This document shows, piece by piece, positions 20,009 through 51,785 of a DNA stretch of 64,000 bases; position 1 is the first letter of the stretch, and each line of letters starts with the position of its first letter. The notes beneath the pieces were generated by a model. That model did not search any database and was not told the origin of the DNA. It saw nothing but the letters and a program-made list of their open reading frames with translations. The stretch is from positions 1 through 64,000 of the forward strand of contig NZ_JALGQH010000022.1 in assembly GCF_022810305.1 (NCBI RefSeq). The letters are read 5' to 3'. A program made the position numbers and the translations under genes. This stretch comes from Rhodococcus sp. ARC_M6. GTDB taxonomy: Bacteria > Actinomycetota > Actinomycetes > Mycobacteriales > Mycobacteriaceae.

Positions 20009-21127
20009 TCAGTCCCGGTGGGCGGGGCCCGATGGCGTCGCGTGAAAAAATCGCGGCACAGGCAATGACCTGCGAGTATAGGCGTCTACTACGTTTTGTC
20101 GTATATTTCGGAATTTACCAACGGGGGCGAGCGCGATGGCGCTTCCGCCGAACCCGCCGCCGGTCATTCTGGCGCCCACGGCGCCGCCCAGGCGCGCGGC
20201 TTCGACCGCGGCGTCGAGTTCGGGGCAGGAGACTTCGAAGTCGTCACGCAATGAAGCGTGAGAACTGTCGAGGAGCGGGCCGATCTCACTCACCCGGTTC
20301 TCACGCAAGAGCTTCCCGACGCCTCGCACCCGCTCGTTTTCGGAGACGACGTGGCGTGCCCGGGACCGAAGGACTGCGTCGTCCAGTGATTCGACCTGGT
20401 CGAGGGTTGCCTCGCGCAAACTACTGACGCCGAGGAAATGCGCTGCGTCGGCGCACTGGGCTCGGCGCACTCCGTATTGACCGTCGGCGAGGGAATGTTT
20501 GACCCCGGTGTCGATGACGATGAGTTCGAAACCGGTGGATGGTAGGTCGAATGGGATGTGCTCGGTGGAGTTGTCTCGGCAGTCGAGGAGAAGTGCTGTT
20601 GCGGGCCGGGCGAAGAGTGCGATGGTCTGGTCCATCCCGCCGGTGGGGGCTCCGACCCCTTCGTTTTCGGCACGGATACAGGCTTCTGCGAGTTGATGGC
20701 GGGAGAAGGGATTTCCGTGAAGTTCGTTGACAGTCAATGCTACTGAGCAGGTGAGTGCCGCGGAGCTGGAGAGTCCGGCGCCTACGGGTACTGAAGAGTC
20801 GAGGTAGAGATCGATGCCGATGTTGTCGAATCCGAGTGCCCACAGAACTGCTGTGGGATAGGCAGCCCAGCTGTGTCCGATTGTGCCGCAATCACCTTCG
20901 TGGGCGGTTGCGGATTGCTGGCTGTGGATCCGCACCAGGTTGTCGGCGCGTAGTGCGGCGGCAACGTAGGTGCGGTGTTCGAGGGCTATGGGTAGGCACA
21001 GTCCGGCGTTGTAATCGGTGTGTTCGCCGATCAAGTTGACGCGGCCGGGGGCCGACCAGGCGCCGGTCGGTTGGTAGCCGAAGGTCGAATAAAATGATTG
21101 TTGCACAGTACTTTTCAGTGAGTTCAC
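20009..21127 (-). CDS. galK: Galactokinase
   Basis: The product has 372 residues. It has the GHMP-kinase galactose signature GRVNLIGEHTDYNAG (about 28-42), the ATP-binding loop VPVGAGLSSSAA (about 113-124) and the C-terminal GGFGGSA motif. It phosphorylates galactose to galactose-1-phosphate. The GTG start at 21127 overlaps the galT stop (GTGA), showing translational coupling. No galE lies nearby, so the epimerase must be elsewhere. Confidence 0.93.
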   Translation of the reverse strand: MNSLKSTVQQSFYSTFGYQPTGAWSAPGRVNLIGEHTDYNAGLCLPIALEHRTYVAAALRADNLVRIHSQQSATAHEGDCGTIGHSWAAYPTAVLWALGFDNIGIDLYLDSSVPVGAGLSSSAALTCSVALTVNELHGNPFSRHQLAEACIRAENEGVGAPTGGMDQTIALFARPATALLLDCRDNSTEHIPFDLPSTGFELIVIDTGVKHSLADGQYGVRRAQCADAAHFLGVSSLREATLDQVESLDDAVLRSRARHVVSENERVRGVGKLLRENRVSEIGPLLDSSHASLRDDFEVSCPELDAAVEAARLGGAVGARMTGGGFGGSAIALAPVGKFRNIRQNVVDAYTRRSLPVPRFFHATPSGPAHRD

Positions 21128-22227
21128 AGTGCCAACTCCCTCAAGCGTGCGGCCACGTTTTCGGGCACGGCGTCATTGACCCATGCTCCCATTGCCGATT
21201 CGGATCCGGCGAGATATTTGAGTTTGCCAGGCGCCCGTAAGATCGAGAAAAGTTGTAGGTGAAGGCGACTCAGATGGCGATTGATTCGAACCGGCGCCTG
21301 ATGCCAGGCCGCGATGTAGGGAACTTGATCGACTTCCGGATAGAAGTGGTCGATGCGGCGCAGGAGATCCTGGTAGACCACTGCGAGTTCTGCGCGCTCA
21401 TCCGTGTTCAGTGCGGGGAGGTCCGGGACATCACGATGGGGAGCCAGGTGAATCTCGATCGGCCACCGTGCTGCTACGGGTACGTAGCCGGTCCAGTGTT
21501 CGCCGCTGTAGACGACGCGAGTGCCGGCGGCACGTTCGAAGTCGAGTACGTCGCGGAGCAGTGAGCGACCAGTGCGCTGAAAGTGCTTGTCGGCCTGTGC
21601 GGAAATGGCTTCCGTTCGGGGTGTCACATACGGATACGCATAGATCTGGCCGTGGGGGTGACGCAGAGTTACGCCGATCTCCTCGCCTCGATTCTCGAAG
21701 CAGAATACCTGCTCGACTCCCGGCAAAGCGGAAAGCTCTTCAGTTCGAGCTATCCATGCCGAGATGATCGTCTTCATGCGGGCGAGTGGGAGATCGCCTA
21801 CGGACGCAGTGTGATCGCTCGAAAAGCACAACACTTCACAGCGGCCGTCAGCGGGACGATCGAGCAGACCCAGACGCGTTCCGTTCGTGTCCGTCTCCGC
21901 GCCGAACGCGAAGCTGGGAAACCTGTTCTCGAACACTGCGACGTCGTACTGTGCTTCGGGTATCTCAGTGGCCGTGCCGGTTTCGCTGGTCGGGCACAGT
22001 GGACAGTCGGCGAGGGACGGTAGGTGTGTGCGGGTCATGCGATGTGACGCGATGGTGATCCACTCGCCTACGATCGCGTCGAAACGCATAGCCGAGTGAT
22101 GGGTGGCAGCCGGTAGCTCCCGCAGATCCGGGGCGTCATGTGCTCGATTGGTGCCGACGTCGTCGAAGTAGATGATCTCGCGGCCGTCGGCCAGCACTCG
22201 ACGGGCCTGGTGATGCGGTGAACTCAT
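21124..22227 (-). CDS. galT: Galactose-1-phosphate uridylyltransferase
   Basis: The product has 367 residues. The catalytic motif HPHGQIYAY carries the nucleophilic histidine of the HIT-like GalT family, and a zinc-binding CPLC pair sits near residue 75. It transfers UMP from UDP-glucose to galactose-1-phosphate. The start at 22227 overlaps the stop of the SMI1/KNR4 gene (ATGA) and follows GGAAG; the 5-codon extension to 22242 is less likely. It is the middle gene of a three-gene overlapping operon. Confidence 0.92.
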   Translation of the reverse strand: MSSPHHQARRVLADGREIIYFDDVGTNRAHDAPDLRELPAATHHSAMRFDAIVGEWITIASHRMTRTHLPSLADCPLCPTSETGTATEIPEAQYDVAVFENRFPSFAFGAETDTNGTRLGLLDRPADGRCEVLCFSSDHTASVGDLPLARMKTIISAWIARTEELSALPGVEQVFCFENRGEEIGVTLRHPHGQIYAYPYVTPRTEAISAQADKHFQRTGRSLLRDVLDFERAAGTRVVYSGEHWTGYVPVAARWPIEIHLAPHRDVPDLPALNTDERAELAVVYQDLLRRIDHFYPEVDQVPYIAAWHQAPVRINRHLSRLHLQLFSILRAPGKLKYLAGSESAMGAWVNDAVPENVAARLRELAL

Positions 22228-22850
22228 GCTTCGACTTCCCATTCCAAAACGCCTTTGCTTACAACGGGTTTCCAGACCCCGAGCACCGAACCCTCTTCGA
22301 GGGCGCTCGCGTGAGCCGCCAACATTACCGAGACGGAGGCCCAGATGGGGCCGCCGGTGTCCCGGGATTCCTGCGCGTACTCAGTGACGCAGTTGTGCAA
22401 TGCGCCCGCCCGAGTATCGACAAAGTAGTGATACTCGTCGAGGCCGGCAAACGGAAGGTAGGAAGGGATGAACATGCTTGCCGCAGTACCGGCTTCGTCG
22501 CCGTCACGCAGATCCATCTCGTCCTCGGCGTACAGTTCCACATTTTCGTAGATGGTTTCGTCCCACGCTTCGAGGAGGTTGAGTCGAATCTCTACGGCCA
22601 CGTCGATGGGATAAAGGAACTTGTCGGGCAGAACGCTGCCGAGAAACAACCCGGTGCGATCGTCATGCGTCACACTGCCGTTCTGTATGCGGTACAGATC
22701 TTTGAGTTCCGCGGGCCAATCGAAACCGGTGGACGCCTCGTATTCGGAGATAGTGTTCTCGGACAATCCCGGTTGCATCGCGGCAGCCGTCACCGGTGCG
22801 TGAGTACGGCACCAGGCAGTGATCCGGCTCCACTCGTGTGCAACGCTCAT
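22224..22850 (-). CDS. SMI1/KNR4-family protein
   Basis: The product has 208 residues from MSVAHEW. The pattern EYEASTGFDWPAELKDLYRIQNGS is the hallmark of the SMI1/KNR4 (SUKH) superfamily, followed by the usual acidic and aromatic segments (LEAWDETIYENV). SUKH proteins are immunity proteins in toxin systems or regulatory scaffolds. No toxin gene is visible here. Instead it is coupled to galT by an ATGA overlap, so it may simply travel with the galactose operon. An alternative start at 22874 is possible. Confidence 0.7.
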   Translation of the reverse strand: MSVAHEWSRITAWCRTHAPVTAAAMQPGLSENTISEYEASTGFDWPAELKDLYRIQNGSVTHDDRTGLFLGSVLPDKFLYPIDVAVEIRLNLLEAWDETIYENVELYAEDEMDLRDGDEAGTAASMFIPSYLPFAGLDEYHYFVDTRAGALHNCVTEYAQESRDTGGPIWASVSVMLAAHASALEEGSVLGVWKPVVSKGVLEWEVEA

Positions 22851-32129: not shown

Positions 32130-32214
32130 GAATACCATCTTGACATCTTGTCGTTTCGAAGATTCACTAATCTGATCACGCATGTTCGCAGATATGGTCA
32201 CCGAGGGAGCAGGA

Positions 32215-33057
32215 ATGACGACGGGTGAGGAATTGACGCGAAGTGTCGACGTCGACGCGGAGATCGAAAAAGCGATGTCCGGCCTTGGACTACTGGCTGC
32301 CGGAGCGAATGTGATCATGCAATTGGGCAGGCCCGCAGTGGGTTACGGCGTCTACGAGAGCAAGGTCGAATCCGGGCGCTTGGATCGTCATCCCGTGAAG
32401 CGGACTCGGACGACGTTGACGTATCTGTCCGTCGCCTCGCTCGCCACTGACGAGGAGAAGAAGAAATATCGGCATGCCGTCAATGGTGCGCACAAGCACG
32501 TTCGCTCCGACGAGAACAGTCCGGTCGAATACAACGCATTCGATCCCGAGCTCCAGCTCTGGGTCGCGGCCTGCTTGTACCGGGGGTTCGAAGACGTCTA
32601 CAAGATTTTGTACGGAAATCCGGATCCGGTAACGCACGAGGCGATCTATCAGCGCAGCGCGACGCTAGGTACGACATTGCAGATGCGTCGTGAGATGTGG
32701 CCTGCCGACAGAGATGCCTTCGAGGTCTACTGGAACGACAATCTGGAAAGGATCAGCATTGACGAGACGATCCGCGCGCACCTCTACGGAATAGCCTCGG
32801 CATCGTTCACTCATCGGATCCTTCATCCGGTGGTCGGACCATTCAACAGATTCGTGACTACGGGCTTCCTTCCGCAGACATTTCGCGACGAGATGCGGCT
32901 GCCGTGGAGCGCGAGGCGTCAACGCAACTTTGATCGTTCGATGCGCGTTGTCGCCCGAGTGAATCGCTACACGCCGAAAATCGTGCGGATGTTCCCTTAC
33001 AACTTTTATCTCTGGGATTTCCGTCGTCGAATCGCGGAGGGCATTGCGCTGGTCTGA
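32215..33057 (+). CDS. MpaB/latex-clearing-protein-like oxygenase (DUF2236)
   Basis: The product has 280 residues. I chose the ATG at 32215, just after GAGGGAGCAGGA; an ATG at 32182 lacks a ribosome site. The conserved features of the DUF2236 heme-oxygenase family are present: RLDRHPVKRTRTTLTYLSV, KKYRHAVNGAHKHVRS (candidate heme ligand histidines) and NAFDPELQLWVAACLYRG. Characterised relatives are the rubber dioxygenase Lcp and fungal MpaB. The substrate here is unknown. It is divergent from the tetR gene at 31515. Confidence 0.75.
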   Translation: MTTGEELTRSVDVDAEIEKAMSGLGLLAAGANVIMQLGRPAVGYGVYESKVESGRLDRHPVKRTRTTLTYLSVASLATDEEKKKYRHAVNGAHKHVRSDENSPVEYNAFDPELQLWVAACLYRGFEDVYKILYGNPDPVTHEAIYQRSATLGTTLQMRREMWPADRDAFEVYWNDNLERISIDETIRAHLYGIASASFTHRILHPVVGPFNRFVTTGFLPQTFRDEMRLPWSARRQRNFDRSMRVVARVNRYTPKIVRMFPYNFYLWDFRRRIAEGIALV

Positions 33058-39915: not shown

Positions 39916-41418
39916 TCAGTTCTGTTTCTGTGCGACCAGTTCTGTGCGATCGATCGAGCGCTTGAGGATTTTGCCGGTAGATCCCTTGGGTAGCGAGTCG
40001 ACAAACTGGACGACGCGAGGAATCTTGTAGGCGGACAGATGGTCCCGCGCCCAGCCCGTCACGTCATCCGCAGTGACGGACGATCCTGGTCGTACCGCGA
40101 CTACCGCCGCAACTTCTTCGCCGTAGTAGTCGTCGGGAATGCCGATCACTGCGGCTTCGATGATGTCGGGATGGCTGTAGAGCACTTCCTCCACCTCGCC
40201 GGGGTACACGTTGTATCCGCCGCGAATGATCAGATCCTTGACGCGGTCGACAATGCGGAGATCGCCATCGCCATCAGTCTCACCGAGGTCTCCGGTGCGG
40301 AACCAGCCGTCCGGCGACAATACGGCGGACGTGTCCTCCGGGCGCTTCCAGTACCCTTTCATCACGGTTGGGCCTTTGATGAAGACTTCGCCGACAATGC
40401 CTGCAGTGCAGACATTTCCGTCGTGATCCCGAACTTCGGCTAGTGTTCGCGGTACAGCTCGGCCGGTGTACCCGATCTTTGCGCCTCGATCGATGTTGTT
40501 GAAGGTTCCGAACGCGCTGGTCTCGGTCAGTCCGTAGCCCTCGAGGATGGTGCAGCCGAAACGCGCTTCGAAGGCGCGCGCAACTTCTCCCGGCAAAGAG
40601 GCGCCGCCGGAGATCGCGATCCGAAGCTGTTCGAAATCCGAGCTGTCCACATCGGCGGCCGCATGCAGCATGGCATTCCACATGGTCGGGACACCGGCCA
40701 TGACGGTCAGTTGATCTCGGCGAACCATCTCGAGCATGGCAGCGGGATCGAAGCGTGGGAGCAGAGACAGCGATCCGCCGCCGATGAAGGTAGGCATCAT
40801 CACGGAACCCTGACCGAAGATGTGGAACAGGGGCAGCCCGGTGCCAGTTCGATCCGAAGAATTTCCTCGACTGCTTTCAGCCCCGATTTCGCCGGCAGAC
40901 AACAGGTTTCCCACGGTCAGCTGTGCGCCCTTGGGGCGTCCGGTAGTGCCGGAGGTGTAAAGAATCGCGGTGGTGTCGCTGCGGTCGCGGTCCGTGATCG
41001 ATGTCGGTGTGTGCGGCCCCGTTGCAGATTCTTCGGTCAGTTCCCACACCGGCACGCCGCGGGCTGCCCCGGCGTCGTGGATTGCGGGCCCGAGTTGGTG
41101 CCAGGCAACGGCGAGTTCAATTTCGGCGTCCTCGAGTACGTATTCGATTTCAGGCTGCGCAGACATCGTGTTAACCGGAACTACGACGCACCCTGCCGCT
41201 TGAATGCCCAGATAGGCCACTACGAATTCGGCGGCCGACGGGGCAACGAGCAAAACTCGATCACCGATGTTCAACCCGGCGCCGCGGATTCGGCCTGCGA
41301 AAGTGAGGGACGCGTCGTGGAGTTGCCGGTATGTCCAGTGCTGCTGGGAACCACGGATTGCGATGTTGTCCGGATTGGCTTCCGCGTGACGAGTCACCGG
41401 GTCGAGGACATTGACCAT
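39916..41418 (-). CDS. AMP-dependent acyl-CoA synthetase/ligase
   Basis: The product has 500 residues. It has the adenylate-forming signatures YTSGTTGRPKGA (about 153-164), YGLTETSA (about 297), GWFRTGDLG and DLIIRGGYNVYP, plus the C-terminal catalytic lysine in GSTGKILKR. It activates a carboxylic acid to its CoA thioester. It is divergent from the tetR at 41554, and the 17-bp palindrome at 41480-41496 lies in their shared promoter. In the levulinate pathway of Pseudomonas the ligase LvaE has this role, so activation of a short hydroxy- or keto-acid is a reasonable inference. Confidence 0.87.
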   Translation of the reverse strand: MVNVLDPVTRHAEANPDNIAIRGSQQHWTYRQLHDASLTFAGRIRGAGLNIGDRVLLVAPSAAEFVVAYLGIQAAGCVVVPVNTMSAQPEIEYVLEDAEIELAVAWHQLGPAIHDAGAARGVPVWELTEESATGPHTPTSITDRDRSDTTAILYTSGTTGRPKGAQLTVGNLLSAGEIGAESSRGNSSDRTGTGLPLFHIFGQGSVMMPTFIGGGSLSLLPRFDPAAMLEMVRRDQLTVMAGVPTMWNAMLHAAADVDSSDFEQLRIAISGGASLPGEVARAFEARFGCTILEGYGLTETSAFGTFNNIDRGAKIGYTGRAVPRTLAEVRDHDGNVCTAGIVGEVFIKGPTVMKGYWKRPEDTSAVLSPDGWFRTGDLGETDGDGDLRIVDRVKDLIIRGGYNVYPGEVEEVLYSHPDIIEAAVIGIPDDYYGEEVAAVVAVRPGSSVTADDVTGWARDHLSAYKIPRVVQFVDSLPKGSTGKILKRSIDRTELVAQKQN

Positions 41419-41553: not shown

Positions 41554-42234
41554 GTGTTTGATGACGATTCTCGGATATCGGCGCTGCCGCTCGCTCCGCC
41601 GGCGTTGCATCGCGATCCACCCAGCACGCAACGTGGCGCCAGGACCCGCGCAGCTCTGATCGCCTCGGCACGTGAGGTTTTCGAGACCGCCGGCTACCTC
41701 GATGCTCGCCTGATAGACATTGCGAAGGGAGCCGGGTGCGCCACCGGCTCTTTCTATACGTATTTTGCCAACAAAGAAGAGGTCTTCGCGGCAGTCCTCG
41801 ACGTTGCACGTGAAGAGATGATGCATCCCGGGATGGGCCGGGTTGCCGGTACGGACGATCCGTATGCGGTTCTGGAGGCGAGCAATCGAGCGTATCTTGC
41901 TGCGTATCAGCGTAATGCGAAGCTGATGGGTCTCATGGAGCAGGTCGCGCATATCGACTCGGAGTTTCGTAGGATCCGCAACGAACGCGCCGACGCCTTT
42001 ATCAGGAGAAATGCCCGGGGTATCGCCGATCTGCAGAAACGTGGCATTGCTGATGCATCGCTGGATCCACTGACGTCGTCGATAGCGTTGTCCGGCATGG
42101 TGAGCCGGTTTGCTTACAGCGTTTTCACGTTGGGAGAGGGTCTGGTGGGCGGGCGATCCTTGGATTTCGAAGACGTCGTTGTCACCGTCACAAAACTATG
42201 GGCAAACGCGCTCAGGTTTTCTGATCACGGTTGA
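41554..42234 (+). CDS. TetR family regulator of the catabolic island
   Basis: The product has 226 residues from a GTG preceded by AAAGGGGAG. The helix-turn-helix reads RAALIASAREVFETAGYLDARLIDIAKGAGCATGSFYTYFANKEEV, and the C-terminal domain is longer than average, as in KstR/FadR-like TetRs that bind acyl-CoA esters. The gene lies between two copies of the same palindrome (41480-41496 and 42794-42810). It therefore probably represses the ligase, itself, the maoC gene and the long rightward operon, with a CoA ester as the likely inducer. Confidence 0.85.
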   Translation: MFDDDSRISALPLAPPALHRDPPSTQRGARTRAALIASAREVFETAGYLDARLIDIAKGAGCATGSFYTYFANKEEVFAAVLDVAREEMMHPGMGRVAGTDDPYAVLEASNRAYLAAYQRNAKLMGLMEQVAHIDSEFRRIRNERADAFIRRNARGIADLQKRGIADASLDPLTSSIALSGMVSRFAYSVFTLGEGLVGGRSLDFEDVVVTVTKLWANALRFSDHG

Positions 42235-42878: not shown

Positions 42879-43700
42879 GTGAAGGTTGCCCAGAAGGTTG
42901 CAATAGTCACCGGTGGCGGCGGGGGAATCGGGGGTGCGCTCGCCCGGAAGCTGGCAGCAGAGGGTGCCAGCGTCGTTGTTGCCGATCTCAACGCTGATGC
43001 GGCCGCTGCTGTTGCCGACGAGGTCAATGCGGCGTATCCGGGATCAGCTGTTGCCTCCTCGGGCGATGTATCCGACGCCGGCGTGATCGAGGGTTTGATT
43101 GCGCTCGCCGAAGAGTCGTTCGGCCCCGTAGATCTGTACTTCGCGAATGCCGGCATTACCGGTGGACTTGGCCTCGATGTCGACGAAGACGGCTGGGACA
43201 TTGCCTTCGACATCAACGTTCGGGCTCACATTCGGGCCGCTCGTTTGCTCGTGCCCGGTTGGGTTGAGCGTGGAGAGGGCTATTTTGTCAGCACCGCCTC
43301 TGCCGCCGGCCTTCTCACCCAGGTCGGTTCGGCGGTGTACTCCGTTACCAAGCATGCCGCAGTCGGTTTTGCCGAGTGGCTATCGATGACCTACGGAGAC
43401 AAGGGCGTCCGAGTCAGCTGCCTCTGTCCGATGGGAGTCAATACCAAACTTCTCTACGAGGGCAAGGACTCCGGTGATCCGCTGGGCGAAGCCGCGACCG
43501 GTGCAGTTCTTGCCGCCGGGGAGGTCATCGAGCCCGATCAGTGTGCCGAAATTGTGCTTGCTGCAGTAGATGCCGAGCACTTTCTTATTCTTCCGCACCC
43601 GAAGGTTCTGGACATGTACCGACAGAAAGGTGCAGATTACGACCGCTGGCTGCGCGGAATGCGCCGCTACCAAGCGTCGTTGCTTGCAGGAAGCCGATGA
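42879..43700 (+). CDS. Short-chain dehydrogenase/reductase 1
   Basis: The product has 273 residues from a GTG with GAGAGG 8 bases upstream. The cofactor motif is [10 protein letters not shown], the structural NAG is in FANAG, the catalytic serine in STASAAG and YxxxK is YSVTK. The C-terminal extension ([24 protein letters not shown]) is of the kind seen in SDRs of lipid and steroid catabolism. It is the first gene of the long rightward operon and is preceded by operator copy 2. Oxidation of a hydroxyacyl-CoA or reduction of a keto-acyl-CoA is likely; the substrate is not defined. Confidence 0.85.
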
Positions 43701-43755
43701 GCCCACGGCATTCAGCTTCGTAAATTTCCCTTTTCCCTCGCTATCAGGAGTCCGC

Positions 43756-44976
43756 ATGTCATTCTTCGAGTTTTCGGATCGCACCAAGAAGTATCAGGCC
43801 GAGTTGAACGATTTCATGGACAAGCACGTCTACCCAGCTGAGGCCGTCTACGAAGAGCAGATGCGCGCCGCCGGCAATCCCCATTTCCAGCCGCCGATCA
43901 TCGACGAGCTGAAGAAGGAAGCCAAGGCGCGTGGGCTGTGGAACCTCTTCCATCCCCATCCGGAATGGGGTCCCGGCCTGACCAACCTGGAGTATGCGCC
44001 GCTCGCAGAGATCATGGGCCGCAGCCACCTTGCGTCCGAAGCTACCAACTGCGCTGCCCCTGATACCGGCAACATGGAGGTGCTCACTCTCTTCGGCACG
44101 GACGAGCACAAAGAGAAGTACCTCAAGCCCCTGCTCGACGGTGAAATCCGCTCGGCGTTTGCGATGACCGAGCCCGAGGTGGCAAGTTCGGACGCTACCA
44201 ATATTCAACTCCGCATGGATCGTGACGGTGACGAGTACGTCCTTAACGGACGTAAGTGGTTTGCCTCCAACGCATTGCATCAGAACTGCAAGGTTCTCAT
44301 CGTGATGGGTAAGACCGACGTCAATGCTGCGACGCACCGCCAGCAGTCCATGATGGTGGTTCCGATCGACGCGCCCGGTGTCACCATCCTCCGTAACCTG
44401 CCGGTCTTCGGATATCAGGACCGCGAAGGACACGGCGAGATCACCTTCGAGGACGTACGCGTACCCGCCAAGGACATCCTCGCCGGCGAAGGCGAAGGCT
44501 TTGCCATCAGCCAGGCACGTCTCGGACCCGGTCGCATTCACCATTGCATGCGAGCCATCGGAATGGCCGAGCGCGCACTGGAACTCATGTGCAAGCGCGC
44601 ATCCACTCGCATCACGTTCGGCAGGCCCGTCAGCGACAACGCCAATATTCAGGACTGGATTGCCGAGGCGCGTATCGAGATCGAGATGGTCCGGTTGCTC
44701 ACGCTCAAGGCCGCATACATGATGGACACGGTGGGCAACAAGGAAGCGCGTACCGAAATCGCAGCTATCAAGGTTGCGGCGCCGAACATCGCCCTCAAGA
44801 TCATTGACCGCGCCATCCAGGTCCACGGCGGCGCCGGCGTTACCGACGATTTCCCGCTTGCAATGGCCTACGCGCACATGCGCACGCTTCGTCTGGCCGA
44901 CGGTCCGGACGAGGTGCATAAGCGCGCTATCGCCAAGCAGGAACTGCGCAAGTACCGCGATGTCAAGGCGAACTGA
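43756..44976 (+). CDS. ACAD11/LvaC-type acyl-CoA dehydrogenase
   Basis: The product has 406 residues; AGGAG precedes the ATG. It has features I associate specifically with the C-terminal half of mammalian ACAD11: [62 protein letters not shown] and [14 protein letters not shown]11 and Pseudomonas LvaC act on 4-phosphoacyl-CoA made by a partner kinase and isomerise it toward beta-oxidation rather than simply desaturating. The partner APH-type kinase is encoded two genes downstream (45753). An SDR lies between them, starting 1 bp after this stop. Confidence 0.85.
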
Positions 44977-44977
44977 G

Positions 44978-45760
44978 ATGTCAGGGCTGGATCTCACGGG
45001 TAAGACGGCGATTGTCACCGGTGCCTCGCGGGGCATCGGTCTTGCGACAGCGCAGGCGATTGCCGCGGCCGGCGGAAACGTTGTATTAACTTCGCGCTCA
45101 AAGGAATCCGCCGATACGGCAGCGGCTCAGATCGCTGGCAACGCGATTGGAGTCGGTGCACACGTGACGGATGAGGATGCAGCGCGCCGGTGCGTCGAGT
45201 TGACCATCGAACGTTTCGGAAGTCTCGACATCCTCGTGAACAACGCGGGCACCAATCCGTCGTTCGGACCGATCATCGATCAGGATCACTCGCGCTTCGC
45301 CAAGACCTTCGACGTCAACGTGTGGGCTCCGGTCCTGTGGACAGGCCTTGCTGCGCGAGCATGGATGAGTGAACACGGTGGCGTCGTGGTCAATACGGCG
45401 TCCATCGGCGGCATGGCATTCGAGGCCGGTATCGGTACGTACAACGCGTCGAAGGCTGCTCTCATCCACATCACCAAACAGCTTGCTCTCGAACTGTCTC
45501 CGAAGATCCGGGTCAACGCGGTTGCTCCGGGAGTCGTGCGCACTAAGCTGGCCGAGGCGCTGTGGAAGGAACACGAAGAAGCAGTATCAGCGTCGACAGC
45601 GTTGGGCCGCATCGGCGAGCCGGACGATGTCGCCTCCGCTATCGCGTTCTTGGTTTCCGACGCAGCGGGGTGGATTACCGGTGAGATCATGACTATCGAC
45701 GGTGGTCAGTTGCTCGGTGATGCAAAGCCGTTCAGGCAAGGAGCATCTCTCGGTGGCTAG
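44978..45760 (+). CDS. Short-chain dehydrogenase/reductase 2
   Basis: The product has 260 residues. It has TGASRGIG (cofactor), NNAG, the catalytic serine in NTASIGG, YNASK (YxxxK) and a C-terminal ITGEIMTIDGG. It is a classical SDR of the FabG/3-ketoacyl reductase type. The start lies immediately after the ACAD11-type gene and its end overlaps the APH-type kinase gene by 8 bp, so the three are translated as one block. In the levulinate pathway an SDR (LvaD) interconverts 4-keto- and 4-hydroxyacyl-CoA; this is a candidate for that step. Confidence 0.85.
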   Translation: MSGLDLTGKTAIVTGASRGIGLATAQAIAAAGGNVVLTSRSKESADTAAAQIAGNAIGVGAHVTDEDAARRCVELTIERFGSLDILVNNAGTNPSFGPIIDQDHSRFAKTFDVNVWAPVLWTGLAARAWMSEHGGVVVNTASIGGMAFEAGIGTYNASKAALIHITKQLALELSPKIRVNAVAPGVVRTKLAEALWKEHEEAVSASTALGRIGEPDDVASAIAFLVSDAAGWITGEIMTIDGGQLLGDAKPFRQGASLGG

Positions 45761-46787
45761 TGTCGAAGTAGTGGGGTTGGATCCCGGAGCTGTCACCCAG
45801 TGGATATCGGGATTGGGAATCGACGTCAGCGGCCCGCTGACTTTTGATCGCATTGGTCTGGGACAGTCCAATCTCACCTATCTCGTTCAGGATCAGGGCG
45901 GCGGGAAGTGGGTGCTACGACGCCCACCTCTCGGTCACCTTCTGGCGTCCGCGCACGATGTGGCACGCGAAGCTCGGATCCTGTCCGCATTGGAATCCAC
46001 GGAGGTGCCGTCGCCCCAAGTTTTCGGGTTGACGGAAGACCCGGCAGTTACCGAAGTTCCTTTGCTGCTCATGGAATTTGTCGAGGGCGCGGTAGTGGAC
46101 CGAATGCCCTTGGCAGAAGCGTTGTCGCCCGAGAGGCGCGGGGCAATCGGCATCTCGCTTGCCCAGACTTTGGCCAAAATTCATGCCGTCGACCTGCAGG
46201 CTGCGGGCTTGGACGATTTGGCCAGCCACAAGCCCTATGCGGCCAGGCAATTGAAGCGGTGGGGCGGGCAGTGGGAACAGTCGAAGACTCGGGAGTGCCC
46301 GGATCTCGATGACTTGACCAGGCGCTTGATCGCCGCGCAGCCGCAACACACCGAAACCACGTTGGTGCATGGCGACTTTCACCTGCGCAATGTGATCACA
46401 TCAGTTGACGACGGCTCTGTGGTTGCCGCCCTCGACTGGGAACTATGCACACTCGGTGATCCGCTCGCCGATGTCGGAAGTTTGCTTGCGTACTGGCCGG
46501 CGGCCGGCGAAGATACTGGCGGAGATTTCCCGGCGTCGTCGCTCCCGGGATTCCCGTCGAGAGACGAGATGTCGCAGGTCTATCTCGATGCCACCGGTCG
46601 GGATCCTGCGGCACTGAAGTTCTGGCATACGTTGGGGCTGTGGAAGGTTGCGGTGATCGCCGAGGGCGTGATGCGTCGCGCGCGCGATGAGCCACAGAAT
46701 GCGGCCGAAAGTGGTACACCCACTGTTGAACGTATCGATGCTCTGATTGCCAAGGCCAGAGAAGTTGCAGATCAAGCCGGAATCTGA
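45753..46787 (+). CDS. APH-fold kinase, ACAD10/11 N-terminal or LvaA type
   Basis: The product has 344 residues from a GTG with CAAGGAG about 9 bases upstream. The aminoglycoside-phosphotransferase fold is complete: GLGQSNLTYLV (nucleotide loop), VLRRPPLGHLLASAHDVAREARIL, the catalytic HGDFHLRNV (HGD 206-208, N213) and the metal-binding DWE (228-230, in ALDWELCTLGDPLAD). The SNLTYL and PPLGHLL segments match the N-terminal domain of ACAD10/11, not antibiotic-resistance APHs. The inferred reaction is ATP-dependent phosphorylation of 4-hydroxyacyl-CoA. Antibiotic resistance is unlikely in this context. Confidence 0.82.
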   Translation: MASVEVVGLDPGAVTQWISGLGIDVSGPLTFDRIGLGQSNLTYLVQDQGGGKWVLRRPPLGHLLASAHDVAREARILSALESTEVPSPQVFGLTEDPAVTEVPLLLMEFVEGAVVDRMPLAEALSPERRGAIGISLAQTLAKIHAVDLQAAGLDDLASHKPYAARQLKRWGGQWEQSKTRECPDLDDLTRRLIAAQPQHTETTLVHGDFHLRNVITSVDDGSVVAALDWELCTLGDPLADVGSLLAYWPAAGEDTGGDFPASSLPGFPSRDEMSQVYLDATGRDPAALKFWHTLGLWKVAVIAEGVMRRARDEPQNAAESGTPTVERIDALIAKAREVADQAGI

Positions 46788-46826
46788 CGAGATCGCCGGT
46801 TTCACCACAATGTATTTGGAGGACAA

Positions 46827-47585
46827 GTGAGTCAGGAACGCAGAACGGCGATCGTCACGGGTTCAGCTCGTGGTATCGGTGCGGCAGTGGCAAAGCGTCT
46901 ATCGGCAGACGGGTTTGCCGTTGCAGTACTCGATCTCGACGAAGCAGCGTGCGCGGGCACGGTTGACGCGATCAAGGCTGCGGGCGGTGAAGCGCTGGCC
47001 GTCGGAGCCGATGTATCCGATGAAGCATCGGTGGCCGCCGCGGTCGAAAGGATCGCAACTGAACTCGGTTCGCCCACTGTATTGATCAACAACGCCGGTA
47101 TCACTCGGGACAATCTGCTCTTCAAGATGACCGTTGCCGAGTGGGATTCCGTCATCAATGTTCACCTTCGCGGCGCGTTCTTGATGTCGCGCGCTGTGCA
47201 GAAGTACATGGTGGAAGCCAAGTTCGGCCGTATCGTGAATCTCTCGAGCACGTCGGCACTGGGTAACCGGGGTCAGGTCAACTACTCGGCAGCGAAGGCG
47301 GGCATGCAGGGATTCACCAAAACTTTGGCCTTCGAATTGGGCAAGTTCGGCGTCACGGCCAATTCGATTGCTCCCGGATTTATCGAAACCGAGATGACTG
47401 CGGCAACGGCGGAGCGCATGGGCGTCGGCTTTGAGGATTTCAAAACAGCTGCCGCTTCACAGATTCCGGTCAACCGCGTCGGCCAGCCCGAGGATATCGC
47501 TCACACTGCGTCCTTCTTTGTCAGTGAGGGCGCAGGATTTGTCTCCGGCCAGGTTGTCTACGTTGCCGGTGGGCCCAAGGACTGA
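46827..47585 (+). CDS. Short-chain dehydrogenase/reductase 3 (FabG-like)
   Basis: The product has 252 residues from a GTG preceded by TTGGAGGACAA. It has TGSARGIGAAVA, NNAGITRDNLLFKM, LSSTSALGNRGQVNYSAAKAG (Ser, Tyr and Lys of the catalytic set) and the FabG-like FSPGFIETEM-equivalent IAPGFIETEMT. It is closest in pattern to 3-oxoacyl-ACP/CoA reductases and could serve the 3-hydroxyacyl-CoA step of beta-oxidation. It is 39 bp downstream of the kinase gene in the same operon. Confidence 0.86.
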   Translation: MSQERRTAIVTGSARGIGAAVAKRLSADGFAVAVLDLDEAACAGTVDAIKAAGGEALAVGADVSDEASVAAAVERIATELGSPTVLINNAGITRDNLLFKMTVAEWDSVINVHLRGAFLMSRAVQKYMVEAKFGRIVNLSSTSALGNRGQVNYSAAKAGMQGFTKTLAFELGKFGVTANSIAPGFIETEMTAATAERMGVGFEDFKTAAASQIPVNRVGQPEDIAHTASFFVSEGAGFVSGQVVYVAGGPKD

Positions 47586-47622
47586 GCTTCACCCCCCCAT
47601 CGCTCGAACTGTAGGAGTTTGC

Positions 47623-48816
47623 ATGGCTTTCGATGAAGATGCAGTATCGCGTGATCTTGCCGAAAAGGTGAACACGCTTCTTGCCGATCATGATCCGGCG
47701 AAGACGTCAGTATCGAAGTTCCTCGGCGCACGATTCGACGCCGGATTGGCGTGGGTCCATTTCGCCGAAGGTCAGGGGGGTCTCGGTGTGCCGCAGAGCT
47801 TCCAGCACCGGGTTAACGCTCAATTGGCGGCAGCGGGTGCGCCGGGGCCGGATGTGGGCAAGAACGGCATCGGACTGGGCATGGCAGCGCCCACCATTTC
47901 CGCATTCGGCACGGAGGAGCAGAAGCGGAAGTTCCTGCGCCCCTTGTGGACTTCGGAGACGGTTTACTGCCAACTGTTCAGCGAGCCGGGTGCCGGTTCG
48001 GATCTGGCCGCAGTGGCTACGCGCGCGGTACGCGACGGCGACGACTGGATTGTGAACGGGCAGAAGGTCTGGACGTCGGGCGCTCAGAACGCGCAGTTGG
48101 CAATTCTGGTGGCCCGGACCGATCCGGAGCGTTCCAAACATGCCGGGCTGAGCTACTTCATCTGCGATATGACTGATCCCGGCGTCGACGTCCGTCCACT
48201 ACGTCAGATCACCGGTGAGGCCGAGTTCAACGAGGTATTCCTCACGGACGTACGCATTCCGGATGCCAATCGCCTCGGCGCAGAGGGGCAGGGTTGGAAG
48301 GTCGCTACCACGACGTTGAACAACGAGCGTGTGGCCATCGGATCCGGCGCTCCGCGTGAAGGCGGAATGATCGGCAAGGTTGCGCAGGCTTGGCGAGAGG
48401 AGTCGCAGCTGCGTAACCCGGCGATGCACGACGAGTTGATGCGGCTCTGGACCGAATCCGAAGTTGCCCGTCTGACCGGGGTACGGCTCGGCCAGCAACT
48501 TGCAGCCGGGCAGCCCGGACCGGAGGGCTCCGGCATGAAACTTGCGTTTGCCGGTCTCGCCCAGCAGATTTCGGGCTTCGATCTCGAACTGCACGGTGAA
48601 GCCGGATTGCGTTACGACGACTGGACGCTCCGGCGACCGGATTCCGTGGACTTCACCGGACGTGAACCGGGCTACCGCTACCTTCGAGCCAAGGGTAATT
48701 CGATCGAAGGCGGGACGTCGGAGATCCTTCGCAACGTCATCGCAGAGCGAGTCCTCGGGTTGCCGCCCGAGCATCGCGTCGACAAGGACATCGCCTGGAA
48801 GGACCTACCCCGATGA
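47623..48816 (+). CDS. Acyl-CoA dehydrogenase, large subunit of a probable heteromeric pair
   Basis: The product has 397 residues; TAGGAG precedes the ATG. Motifs are LFSEPGAGSDLAAV, NGQKVWTSGAQ and the C-terminal SIEGGTSEILRNVIAERVLG, in which the glutamate of IEGG occupies the catalytic-base position. The next gene is another acyl-CoA dehydrogenase overlapping by 4 bp. In actinobacteria such pairs form alpha2-beta2 enzymes that act on sterol side chains and other bulky acyl-CoAs. Substrate identity is not shown by the sequence. Confidence 0.86.
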   Translation: MAFDEDAVSRDLAEKVNTLLADHDPAKTSVSKFLGARFDAGLAWVHFAEGQGGLGVPQSFQHRVNAQLAAAGAPGPDVGKNGIGLGMAAPTISAFGTEEQKRKFLRPLWTSETVYCQLFSEPGAGSDLAAVATRAVRDGDDWIVNGQKVWTSGAQNAQLAILVARTDPERSKHAGLSYFICDMTDPGVDVRPLRQITGEAEFNEVFLTDVRIPDANRLGAEGQGWKVATTTLNNERVAIGSGAPREGGMIGKVAQAWREESQLRNPAMHDELMRLWTESEVARLTGVRLGQQLAAGQPGPEGSGMKLAFAGLAQQISGFDLELHGEAGLRYDDWTLRRPDSVDFTGREPGYRYLRAKGNSIEGGTSEILRNVIAERVLGLPPEHRVDKDIAWKDLPR

Positions 48817-49907
48817 GCGCCGATCTGCTGTACACCGAGACCGAACAAGACCTGCGGGCCAGTGTTCGACGCTTGCTGAGCGAACGCGCCGCAGCCGAGA
48901 CTGTGATGACCGCGTACGACGAGGTGCCGGCAGACTTCACCGGTTTGTGGAAATCGCTTGCATCGGAACTCGGGTTGGCGGGATTGCTGATACCCGAGGA
49001 GTTCGGGGGAGCAGGTGCGTCCACCCGTGAGGCTGCGGTGGTGATGGAGGAGATCGGCCGCGCTGTCGCTCCCGTTCCGTTCTTCACCAGCGCAGTGCTG
49101 GCAACGACGGCACTGTTGACAGTCGGTGAGCGAGAAGTACTCGGGCGCTTGGCTTCCGGTGAGTCGACTGCCGCGTTGGTGATCCCACTGTCGACGGCGC
49201 CCGGTACTTTTGTCGCCTCGGTCAGGGCAACGGATTCAGGTCTCGTCGGCCGTGTCACCACGGTTGCCGGTGTTGCCGAGGCCGACGTTCTTGTTGTTCC
49301 GGTATCCGGCGGCGGCGGTCTCGAATTGCATACCGTGCGTATCGCTGATGCGAAAGTGACGTCGGTGTTGTCCTTGGACATGACTCGCCGGCTGGCCGAC
49401 GTCGAGTTTTCCGGAGCGTCGTCGGTGCGGGTGGATGGCGGGAACGCTGTTGGCGCTGTGGAAGAAGCGTTGATCGTTGGAAGCGCGCTACTTGCGTCGG
49501 AGCAGTTCGCGGTTGCTCAGTGGTGCTTGGAGACCACGCTCGCCTATGTGAAGGAGCGCAAGCAGTTCGGTCGAGCGATCGGCTCGTATCAGGCGATCAA
49601 GCACCGTCTGGCGGACTTGTGGCTCGAAGTCAGCTCCGCCGGTGCGGCCGCGCGCTATGCCGCAGACACTTACGCCCGTAGTGACGAGGATTCGGCGGTT
49701 GCCGCAACACTCGCTCAGGCATTCTGCAGTGACGTCGCTGTTCACGCTGCCGAAGAATGTGTGCAGCTCCACGGAGGAATCGGAATGACGTGGGAGTACC
49801 CGGCGCACCTGTACCTCAAGCGCGCCAAGAGTGATCAACTGACGCTGGGTACGGCGTATCAGCATCGGGCGCGGCTGGGTGAACTCGTCGACCTTCCTGT
49901 TTCCTGA
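48813..49907 (+). CDS. Acyl-CoA dehydrogenase, second subunit of a probable heteromeric pair
   Basis: The product has 364 residues; the ATG overlaps the previous stop (ATGA). The N-terminal LGLAGLLIPEEFGGAGAS and the C-terminal RKQFGRAIGSYQAIKHRLADLW and CVQLHGGIGMTWEYPAHLYLKRAKSD are clear. The middle beta-domain is poorly conserved: the usual SEPxAGSD and NGxKxW motifs are missing, and there is no YEGT/EGGT glutamate near the C-terminus. This asymmetry is typical of the non-catalytic or FAD-sharing partner in heteromeric dehydrogenases. Confidence 0.84.
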   Translation: MSADLLYTETEQDLRASVRRLLSERAAAETVMTAYDEVPADFTGLWKSLASELGLAGLLIPEEFGGAGASTREAAVVMEEIGRAVAPVPFFTSAVLATTALLTVGEREVLGRLASGESTAALVIPLSTAPGTFVASVRATDSGLVGRVTTVAGVAEADVLVVPVSGGGGLELHTVRIADAKVTSVLSLDMTRRLADVEFSGASSVRVDGGNAVGAVEEALIVGSALLASEQFAVAQWCLETTLAYVKERKQFGRAIGSYQAIKHRLADLWLEVSSAGAAARYAADTYARSDEDSAVAATLAQAFCSDVAVHAAEECVQLHGGIGMTWEYPAHLYLKRAKSDQLTLGTAYQHRARLGELVDLPVS

Positions 49908-49940
49908 AACGCACAATTACTATCTGAGTGGAGAATTCCT

Positions 49941-50924
49941 GTGAAGGCTTGGCGCATCAACGAACTCGGTGAACCCCGAGATGTACTGAAGCTTGAAGAA
50001 GTGGCAGATCCGACGCCGAAGTCCACCGAGTTGTTGGTGAAACTCCTTGCCGTACCGGCCAACTTCCCCGATGTGCTGATGTGCCGCGGCGAGTACCAGA
50101 TCAAGCCGCCCCTGCCATTCACGCCCGGCGTCGAGATGTGTGGTGAAGTTGTCTCGGTCGGAGAATCCGTCACCAAATTCTCGGTCGGTGATCGAGTGAT
50201 CGGCAACCCGAGTCTGCCGGATGGCGGTTTTGCCGAGTTCTCGATTCTGGACGAAACCAACACGTACCCGGCGCCGGCCGCGCTGGATGACGCCGAAGCG
50301 TCTGCTCTCACCGTCGGCTACCAAACGGCGTGGTTCGCGCTGCACCGTCGTACGCAGTTACTCGAAGGTGAGACTCTCTTGGTGCATGCCGCAGCCGGTG
50401 GTGTGGGAAGTGCTGCCGTCCAGATCGGTAAAGCAGCCGGCGCCAAGGTGATCGGTGTTGTCGGTGGACCGGACAAGGTGGAGTACGCACGCAAGCTGGG
50501 TGCGGATTTGGTTGTCGACCGGCACAGCGAGGATTTTGTCGCAGCGGTGAAAGAATTCACCGGCGGTAAGGGCGCCGACGTGGTGTTCGATCCGGTCGGC
50601 GGAGACGCCTACGCGAAGTCGACCAAGTGCATCGCTTTCGAGGGGCGCATCGTGATCATCGGTTTCGCGGGCGGCACCATTCCGCAACCGGCTCTCAATC
50701 ATGCTCTGATCAAGAACTATTCGATCATCGGTCTGCACTGGGGCCTCTACAAGGCGTACAACCAGCAGGCTATCGACGATTGCCATGTCGAGCTCACCAG
50801 GCTTGCGGATGCCGGATTGATCAAACCGTTGATCGGCGAGCGGTTGCCGTTGTCCGACGTTGCCGAGGGTGTCGGTCGACTCGGGGACGGCACAACCGTC
50901 GGCCGCGTGGTGTTTGTTCCCTGA
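49941..50924 (+). CDS. Zinc-independent quinone oxidoreductase-like MDR protein
   Basis: The product has 327 residues from a GTG (SD GGAG upstream). It has the medium-chain reductase fold without the structural zinc cysteines: TPGVEMCGEVVSVGESV, GDRVIGN, the Rossmann loop HAAAGGVGSAAVQIGKAAGAKVIG and GADVVFDPVGGDAY. This is the QorA/NADPH:quinone reductase group. Many members in catabolic operons reduce enoyl-CoA double bonds. It is 33 bp downstream of the dehydrogenase pair and is followed by a strong hairpin. Confidence 0.84.
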   Translation: MKAWRINELGEPRDVLKLEEVADPTPKSTELLVKLLAVPANFPDVLMCRGEYQIKPPLPFTPGVEMCGEVVSVGESVTKFSVGDRVIGNPSLPDGGFAEFSILDETNTYPAPAALDDAEASALTVGYQTAWFALHRRTQLLEGETLLVHAAAGGVGSAAVQIGKAAGAKVIGVVGGPDKVEYARKLGADLVVDRHSEDFVAAVKEFTGGKGADVVFDPVGGDAYAKSTKCIAFEGRIVIIGFAGGTIPQPALNHALIKNYSIIGLHWGLYKAYNQQAIDDCHVELTRLADAGLIKPLIGERLPLSDVAEGVGRLGDGTTVGRVVFVP

Positions 50925-50928
50925 CTCC

Positions 50929-50976
50929 TGCTGTGCGCCTTTATTACCCGCCCGCGGTTAATAAAGGCGCACAGCA
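50929..50976. terminator. Hairpin with 18-bp perfect arms inside the operon
   Basis: The arms TGCTGTGCGCCTTTATTA (50929-50946) and its exact complement (50959-50976) enclose a GC-rich 12-base loop. It lies between the quinone oxidoreductase and the last SDR. It probably ends most transcripts of the operon, leaving limited read-through into the SDR gene. Confidence 0.75.
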
Positions 50977-50999
50977 CTAGGTTTGAAAGGTTTGATCAG

Positions 51000-51785
51000 A
51001 TGAGCTTGTTGGACGGACTGTTCGACGTCAGTGGCAAGACTGTCGTGGTGACCGGTGGATCACGCGGAATCGGCTACATGATCGCTCGCGGATTTGTCGA
51101 GGGCGGCGCGACAGTCATCATCTCCGCGCGCAAGGCAGAGGCATGTGACAAGGCGGCGCAGGAACTCTCGGAGTTCGGCACCTGCATTTCACATCCGGCC
51201 GATTTGTCGACCGACGAAGGCGTCGCAAGTTTGGCGGCGAAGGTCGCCGAGGTATCGCCGACGCTCGACGTGCTGGTCAATAATGCCGGCGCGACCTGGG
51301 GCGCTCCGGTCGACGATTTTCCGGCCGCCGGGTTCGACAAGATCTTCGATCTCAACGTCAAAGCGATCTTCTTGCTGACGCAGAAGTTGTTGCCGCAGTT
51401 ACGTGCTGCGGCAACAACCGAGGATCCGGCGCGCGTGATCAATATCGGTTCGATCGACGGACTGGTGGTGTCCGGCTCCGAGAACTTCTCTTATGGTGCG
51501 AGTAAAGCTGCCGTGCACATGTTGACCCGGAAGTTGGCGGCAACGCTTGCAGCGGAAAAGATCACGGTCAATGCGATTGCTCCGGGACCTTTTCCGTCGA
51601 AGATGATGGCCTTCCTTCTCGAAGACGAGGAGAGTGCTAAAGCCGTGGCCGCATCGGTTCCGCTCGGGCGTGTGGGTTCGCCGGAAGATGCTGCCGGGCT
51701 GGCGATCTTCCTGTCCTCCCGCGCCGGTGCTTATCTCACCGGCGCGGTGATTCCGCTCGACGGCGGAGTGAGCGGAACCCGCTGA
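51000..51785 (+). CDS. Short-chain dehydrogenase/reductase 4
   Basis: The product has 261 residues; GAAAGG precedes the ATG. Motifs are TGGSRGIGYMIA, NNAGATWGAP, the serine in NIGSIDG, YGASK and LTGAVIPLDGG. The ATWGAP segment after NNAG is found in SDRs related to RhlG and gluconate-5-dehydrogenase-like enzymes. It is separated from the upstream operon by the hairpin at 50929-50976 and may therefore be expressed less. It is convergent with the YhgE/Pip gene, 6 bp apart. Confidence 0.84.
   Translation: MSLLDGLFDVSGKTVVVTGGSRGIGYMIARGFVEGGATVIISARKAEACDKAAQELSEFGTCISHPADLSTDEGVASLAAKVAEVSPTLDVLVNNAGATWGAPVDDFPAAGFDKIFDLNVKAIFLLTQKLLPQLRAAATTEDPARVINIGSIDGLVVSGSENFSYGASKAAVHMLTRKLAATLAAEKITVNAIAPGPFPSKMMAFLLEDEESAKAVAASVPLGRVGSPEDAAGLAIFLSSRAGAYLTGAVIPLDGGVSGTR

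Follow-up and report, generated by a model that had tools for sequence, protein, structure and literature searches.

The window analysed here, a stretch of 64,000 nucleotides from Rhodococcus sp. ARC_M6 (NCBI RefSeq assembly GCF_022810305.1, contig NZ_JALGQH010000022.1, positions 1 to 64,000 of the forward strand), contains nine genes that run in the same direction as a putative operon (42879-51785, forward strand), among them an acyl-CoA dehydrogenase (ACAD), a short-chain dehydrogenase/reductase (SDR-B), and an APH-fold kinase in immediate succession (Table 1). Two of the junctions are gene overlaps (8 nt and 4 nt) and the remaining gaps measure 1-75 nt, with 55 nt between SDR-A, whose start codon was picked by comparison with the locus of a relative (L177), and the ACAD. 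An earlier note on this DNA had recognized segments of the C-terminal half of mammalian ACAD11 in the dehydrogenase and segments of its N-terminal half (GQSNLTYLV, HGDFHLRNV, and LDWEL) in the APH-fold protein, with an SDR gene between them overlapping the kinase gene; these observations hold, and the overlap is the 8-nt one, the stop codon TAG of SDR-B lying at 45758-45760. The picture of an ACAD11 "split" into genes has to be reversed, as bacteria are already known to encode the two activities separately (LvaA and LvaC; PMC11342911, PMC12440821).

Table 1. Genes of the operon and its upstream neighbors in the window, with predicted roles.
Gene	Position	Strand	Size	Basis of the name	Remark or predicted role
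Acyl-CoA ligase (AMP-binding)	39916..41418	-		Pfam	Divergent; predicted to activate the acid
Putative TetR-type regulator	41554..42234	+		Sequence only	Upstream of the operon
SDR-A	42879..43700	+	273 aa	Pfam; NAD-type by motif	First gene of the operon; kept upstream of the ACAD
ACAD10/11-LvaC-type acyl-CoA dehydrogenase	43756..44976	+	406 aa		ATG at 43756, stop at 44974-44976; predicted 4-phosphoacyl-CoA phosphate-eliminating enzyme
SDR-B	44978..45760	+	260 aa	Pfam SDR; NADP-type by beta-2 motif	Predicted 4-oxoacyl-CoA reductase (LvaD role)
APH-fold kinase	45753..46787	+	344 aa		GTG start at 45753 with AGGAG upstream; predicted 4-hydroxyacyl-CoA kinase
FabG-type SDR	46827..47585	+		NCBIfam and Pfam	Probable 3-hydroxyacyl-CoA dehydrogenase
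FadE-a, ACAD subunit	47623..48816	+		Top PDB match 4x28 chain A (156 bits)	
FadE-b, partner ACAD subunit	48813..49907	+		Top PDB matches 6wy8 (108 bits) and 4x28 chain D (93 bits)	
NADPH:quinone oxidoreductase or enoyl-reductase-like MDR (medium-chain dehydrogenase/reductase)	49941..50924	+		NCBIfam PIG3 model, below cut-off; Pfam	
SDR-D	51000..51785	+		NADP-type by motif	Last gene of the operon

Judged by similarity, active-site residues, and phylogeny, the window ACAD is an ACAD10/11-LvaC-type acyl-CoA dehydrogenase. A phmmer search of the PDB returned ACAD11 first (8v3u, 443 bits, E 1e-131), followed by 8v3v, 2wbi, and 4hr3 at 437-441 bits, the next family after these ACAD11-type entries reaching only 156 bits; identity to the dehydrogenase half of ACAD11 in 8v3u is 53% over 401 aa. 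Work on ACAD11 combining structure, modeling, and mutation assigns the holding of the 4-phosphate to R626, H634, and R637 and the role of base to D753, with R631 being general to ACADs (PMC12440821). As described there and in PMC11342911, conventional ACADs lack this R/H/R cluster, and an Asp takes the place of their catalytic Glu. The window protein has R255, R260, the run H263-C264-M265-R266, and D382, and thus carries the HCMR motif together with the equivalents of the upstream Arg (R626) and of the catalytic Asp (D753). In a tree of 58 ACADs, built by a quick method and in which the only mammalian row is long-branched, the window ACAD and ACAD11 fall in one 51-row clade (SH-aLRT 99) apart from ordinary FadE proteins, and the window protein is nested in an 18-row actinobacterial clade (98). 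This 51-row clade also contains three proteins without HCMR.

The motif, rather than overall similarity, distinguishes this enzyme from its relatives in the same genome. A scan of the strain's own genome for GPGRI-xxx-HCMR found two places, the window ACAD and one encoded on contig C7 with IFHCMR at this point, against none for a reversed-pattern control; the corresponding motifs of the paralogues on contigs C80 and C117 are MHYAMR and IHHAMR. We dropped percent identity as a test of function because these non-HCMR paralogues (51%) are nearly as close to ACAD11 as the window ACAD is (53%), and as far as sequence goes it is the HCMR motif that separates the paralogues where identity does not. 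The loci that we fetched encode 155 different ACADs of this kind, of which 148 pass both motif tests, four have HCMR and fail the second pattern, and three lack HCMR; the loci were fetched by similarity, so that 148/155 characterizes the family and should not be taken as a frequency. The C80 (L110:8121-10249) and C117 (L109:2475-4034) ACADs are 59-60% identical to the window ACAD, and with their altered phosphate motif their chemistry may have changed; the former follows a divergent APH kinase that, in the alignment, lacks the RQ arginine. The C7 ACAD (L111:7171-9722), 38-40% identical, adjoins a divergent APH kinase and is possibly half of a second, remote kinase-dehydrogenase pair.

The partner encoded at 45753 is clearly of the APH family (Pfam APH, E 1e-51), its top PDB matches being 9o56 (182 bits), 3dxp (152 bits), and the kinase half of ACAD11 (148 and 144 bits), to which it is 34% identical. 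Its catalytic core is intact: D208 and N213 of HGDxxxxN, D228 of DWE, the alpha-C glutamate E73, and the RQ-motif arginine R165, corresponding to R176 of ACAD11. In the PDB alignment the Arg next to the alpha-C Glu of ACAD11 bears a number other than 86, so that R86 itself finds no match and the comparison there covers the Arg/Glu pair. A fold search with a model of the kinase did not place 8v3u/8v3v or 9o56 among the best 50 matches listed, a result that excludes nothing. From fold, core residues, and partnership, a role as 4-hydroxyacyl-CoA kinase is plausible. A 65% identical kinase on an R. qingshengii plasmid (L018:12031-14996) lies ahead of a 628-aa ACAD and a MaoC dehydratase; the cluster further includes an ABC transporter and a carboxyl transferase.

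An SR motif after the second strand is usual for NADP(H)-dependent SDRs, and the NADP-type calls made here rest on this beta-2 rule. SDR-B has the motif, which fits a 4-oxo reductase in the role of LvaD; that SDR-B reduces 4-oxoacyl-CoA is our guess. In a tree of SDRs, SDR-B groups with SDRs adjacent to kinases or ACADs, among them the kinase neighbors from two loci of Pseudomonas and one of Burkholderia, which fall near it (support 88, short of the starred level); the rows of this tree were chosen by similarity among SDRs of 220-340 aa.

The arrangement is widespread in the genus. We sought the kinase and the ACAD in the same 28 Rhodococcus genomes (own included) and read the gene content of the loci by tblastn. 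The kinase is found at 67% identity or more in 24 of them, and 20 of these 24 have it in an ACAD-SDR-kinase trio (21 places, with 783-828 nt from the ACAD end to the kinase start), SDR-B being detected in the gap in every one of the 20. One genome (G172) has a gap of 55 nt without SDR-B; in three more (G155, G168, and G175) the contig breaks off close to the kinase, and SDR-B is visible in two of the three (the G168 locus was not fetched). G171, which is 75% complete, gave no match to kinase or ACAD at the cut-offs used. SDR-A, ACAD, SDR-B, kinase, both FadEs, the quinone oxidoreductase, and SDR-D occur together in 19/24 (19/28 of the genomes sampled), FabG falling below threshold in 3 of these 19 operons; the ligase is present in 17 and, at the threshold used, the TetR-type gene in 10. 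In a class-wide set of 296 genomes (own included), five from outside the genus encode a close kinase (E 1e-140), and four of these five carry the trio. The same trio lies on R. opacus plasmid pRop44186_a, and R. jostii RHA1, one of the 28 genomes (G156), carries an ACAD match on plasmid pRHL1. The kinase, SDR-B, and ACAD of RHA1 (L190) are 77, 85, and 83% identical to those of the window, and this strain has a second trio (L196) besides additional ACAD copies.

Seven genomes (L177-L183) have an enoyl-CoA hydratase between SDR-A and the ACAD and a thiolase, named from sequence and position, between the quinone oxidoreductase and SDR-D. Of the 19 operons, 14 include the hydratase and 7 the thiolase. 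Both genes are missing from the operons of the window strain and of its two nearest relatives, and therefore those steps must come from elsewhere. The ligase and the additional SDRs that the earlier note had counted into a 4-hydroxy-acid or levulinate route are real; no counterpart of the hydratase in the relatives' operons is found in positions 29001-55000 of the window (42% identity, 60% coverage; other hydratases were not sought elsewhere in the window). With hydratase and thiolase, as in the relatives, the operon is by its predicted functions a complete beta-oxidation set plus a 4-hydroxy unit.

We propose, with a probability of roughly 0.72, that the operon at 42879-51785 and the divergent ligase form an actinobacterial pathway handling acids with an oxygen at C4, whether present from the start or gained during beta-oxidation. 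In this scheme the ligase would make the CoA ester, SDR-B would reduce a 4-oxo group with NADPH, as LvaD does, and the APH-type kinase would transfer a phosphate to the 4-hydroxyl of the CoA-bound acid. Next, the HCMR-type ACAD would grip the 4-phosphate through R255, H263, and R266 while D382 takes the alpha proton, and would expel phosphate to leave a 2-enoyl-CoA, the FAD being reduced and reoxidized within the cycle; a hydratase, the FabG-type dehydrogenase, and a thiolase would complete the round. Gene content, conservation, residues, and trees are what we obtained directly; the kinase and ACAD half-reactions very probably follow those of the published homologues. The system is likely an actinobacterial version of ACAD10/11-Lva chemistry with a kinase lineage and an operon of its own. 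Of the chemistry suggested in the earlier note, the dehydrogenase side stands by clade and phosphate residues and the kinase side is plausible; a grouping of the kinase with the ACAD11 kinase was not recovered in the tree but is not rejected by the test given below.

Several observations weigh against this proposal. The tree comparison with ACAD10/11 came out differently for the two proteins: the dehydrogenase joins ACAD11, as described above, whereas the window kinase falls in an actinobacterial clade separate from the kinase half of ACAD11, which clusters (support 100) with 32 further rows, most of them kinases from Burkholderiales that adjoin HCMR ACADs. An approximately unbiased (AU) test that held the window kinase and the ACAD11 kinase half together did not reject this joint placement (p-AU 0.42); rows more than 80% identical to a kept row had been removed before the tree was built, and the test left out the rows of L007, L008, and L009, two of them because of long branches and one because it is a piece of the window gene. 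The C80 and C117 paralogues show that proteins without HCMR can sit, at 51% identity to ACAD11, inside the same 51-row clade. The 628-aa ACAD beside the R. qingshengii kinase does not score as ACAD11-type. In three of the 28 genomes (G165, G170, and G176) the ACAD is 80-84% identical while the kinase reaches only 57-59% and is located elsewhere, and in two of them the locus (L203, L204) keeps ACAD and SDR-B without this kinase. Five further loci of the genus (L199-L202 and L205) carry the clade's HCMR ACAD without SDR-B and without this kinase type, in a second conserved layout that reads TetR, SDR-A, ACAD (81-86%), FabG, quinone oxidoreductase; in at least L199 and L205, a kinase of another clade lies a few kb off. 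A locus on an R. opacus plasmid (L024) pairs ACAD and SDR-B with an other-clade kinase on the opposite strand, and the divergent ligase is absent from the two nearest relatives (L175 and L176). Such exchange of partners among loci weakens any inference from neighborhood alone.

What the substrate might be is suggested by the FadE pair, which points away from levulinate and toward an acyl chain that is bulky or longer; a longer or cyclic 4-oxo or 4-hydroxy acid is our guess. FadE-a and FadE-b match two different chains of 4x28, the steroid enzyme ChsE4-ChsE5, which like 6wy8 is a steroid-type heteromer. FadE-b is IpdE2-like and scores under the cut-off of the IpdE2 model. Resemblance to these heteromeric pairs is distant (156 and 93 bits), and the substrate cannot be read across from them. 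Among solved structures the divergent ligase comes closest to feruloyl-CoA synthetase (8wev), a resemblance at the level of the family. As a source of 4-hydroxy acids, 10-hydroxystearate from oleate hydration was considered and dropped, the oleate hydratase family PF06100 having no match in the strain's own genome. A bolder form of our proposal would see here a second, actinobacterial solution to 4-hydroxyacyl-CoA removal, with an HCMR dehydrogenase, a kinase lineage recruited independently of the ACAD11/betaproteobacterial one, a dedicated NADPH 4-ketoreductase between the two, and bulky (cyclic, terpenoid- or steroid-derived) 4-oxo- or 4-hydroxyacyl-CoA substrates, kept as one operon in 19/28 genomes; we hold this tentatively and think it rather doubtful in full.

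The leading rival, close to a route raised in the earlier note, is a pathway for levulinate, 4-hydroxyvalerate, or gamma-valerolactone equal to lva, with the ligase as LvaE, SDR-B as LvaD, the kinase as LvaA, and the ACAD as LvaC. The same four activities do stand side by side, SDR-B is NADP-type by motif, and the Pseudomonas citronellolis LvaD homologue is a 255-aa SDR clustered with the LvaC homologue (PMC6692424). Compared by description rather than by sequence, the Pseudomonas putida lva operon likewise unites a kinase, an HCMR-type ACAD, an SDR, and a ligase by function (PMC6692424, PMC11342911). The nine window genes differ from it in having no LvaB, transporter (LvaF/LvaG), or sigma-54 regulator (LvaR), in the order ACAD-SDR-kinase, and in adding the FadE pair, FabG, the quinone oxidoreductase, SDR-A, and SDR-D; the FadE pair, the quinone oxidoreductase, and two further SDRs would be unneeded for a C5 acid. 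The lva route leads from 4-phosphovaleryl-CoA (4PV-CoA) to 3-hydroxyvaleryl-CoA (3HV-CoA) without a FadE step (PMC6692424), and because the window operon has a FadE pair the levulinate route is unsupported; we consider it unlikely. The absence of LvaB, which the earlier note had taken as a sign that this may be a variant pathway, does not decide the matter. None of the nine genes is of LvaB size, with ACAD, SDR-B, and kinase abutting or overlapping (no search for LvaB was made elsewhere in the genome); this is not diagnostic, because the P. citronellolis lva region, as described in PMC6692424, is also without it, and because a Burkholderia pseudomallei LvaA orthologue is reported to replace the kinase part of ACAD10 in vitro (PMC11342911).

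Quite improbable, in our view, is that the kinase acts on a hydroxyl elsewhere in a bulky terpenoid- or steroid-like acid, with the HCMR ACAD or another enzyme eliminating the phosphate there. The 25-hydroxysteroid kinase of Sterolibacterium denitrificans (PMC8449060; PDB 9ft5, 9fsg) may share the APH-type fold and phosphorylates an alcohol before elimination, but it is 19% identical to the window kinase, its substrate is a tertiary side-chain alcohol of a steroid, and its lyase partner is unknown in PMC8449060. Ordinary beta-oxidation by a plain acyl-CoA dehydrogenase, with an unrelated APH small-molecule kinase in the operon by chance, would suit the ordinary ACAD fold and Pfam domains and the several loci that have the ACAD without this kinase, but is very hard to sustain given an R/H/R cluster and an Asp-for-Glu exchange unlike conventional ACADs (PMC12440821, PMC11342911) and a kinase partnership of such ACADs that recurs in actinobacteria and Burkholderiales.

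Returning to the C4-oxygen route that we favor, its closest mechanistic counterparts are ACAD11 and ACAD10 (PMC12440821, PMC11342911), with which it shares both catalytic halves, the 4-phosphate residues, and the kinase core of Asp, Asn, DWE, and RQ Arg. It differs from them in its separate genes with an SDR between, the lack of a HAD domain, the catabolic operon setting, and a kinase 34% identical and of a different clade. In the papers cited here, this chemistry, which phosphorylates a 4-hydroxyl and then expels phosphate with a flavoenzyme, is described from one pseudomonad operon, the mammalian proteins, and a Burkholderia pair, and no report of it in Rhodococcus or other actinobacteria stood among the papers listed in searches of open-licence literature. 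If the proposal is true, the retention of such an operon in most of the sampled Rhodococcus genomes would establish this chemistry as a lasting component of the catabolism of a third group, the separate enzymes would be tractable material for studying an unusual flavin mechanism, and genes that carry only the annotations "acyl-CoA dehydrogenase" and "phosphotransferase" would gain a function open to testing; the laboratory strain R. jostii RHA1 allows the substrate question to be asked directly.

A core 4-hydroxyacyl-CoA system is also possible in Pseudomonas, where the kinase query matched 58/59 genomes and an ACAD of this type 145/149, and where all 30 of the ACADs fetched read HCMR. Two loci of the common Pseudomonas kinase (L135 and L136; e.g. 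L136:4997-6971) show an adjoining SDR and no ACAD, and no lvaABCD-like operon occurs among the Pseudomonas loci read (kinases, L133-L136; second ACAD copies, L167-L171). Another phosphorylation-first route in the genus Rhodococcus is that of R. rhodochrous GD02, in which a two-component kinase is reported to start hydroxyphenylethanone catabolism (PMC12167813). Elsewhere in the window, positions 32182-33057 encode a protein with an MPAB/Lcp (rubber oxygenase-like) catalytic domain, and GalK-like and GalT-like genes adjoin each other on the reverse strand at 20009-22242.

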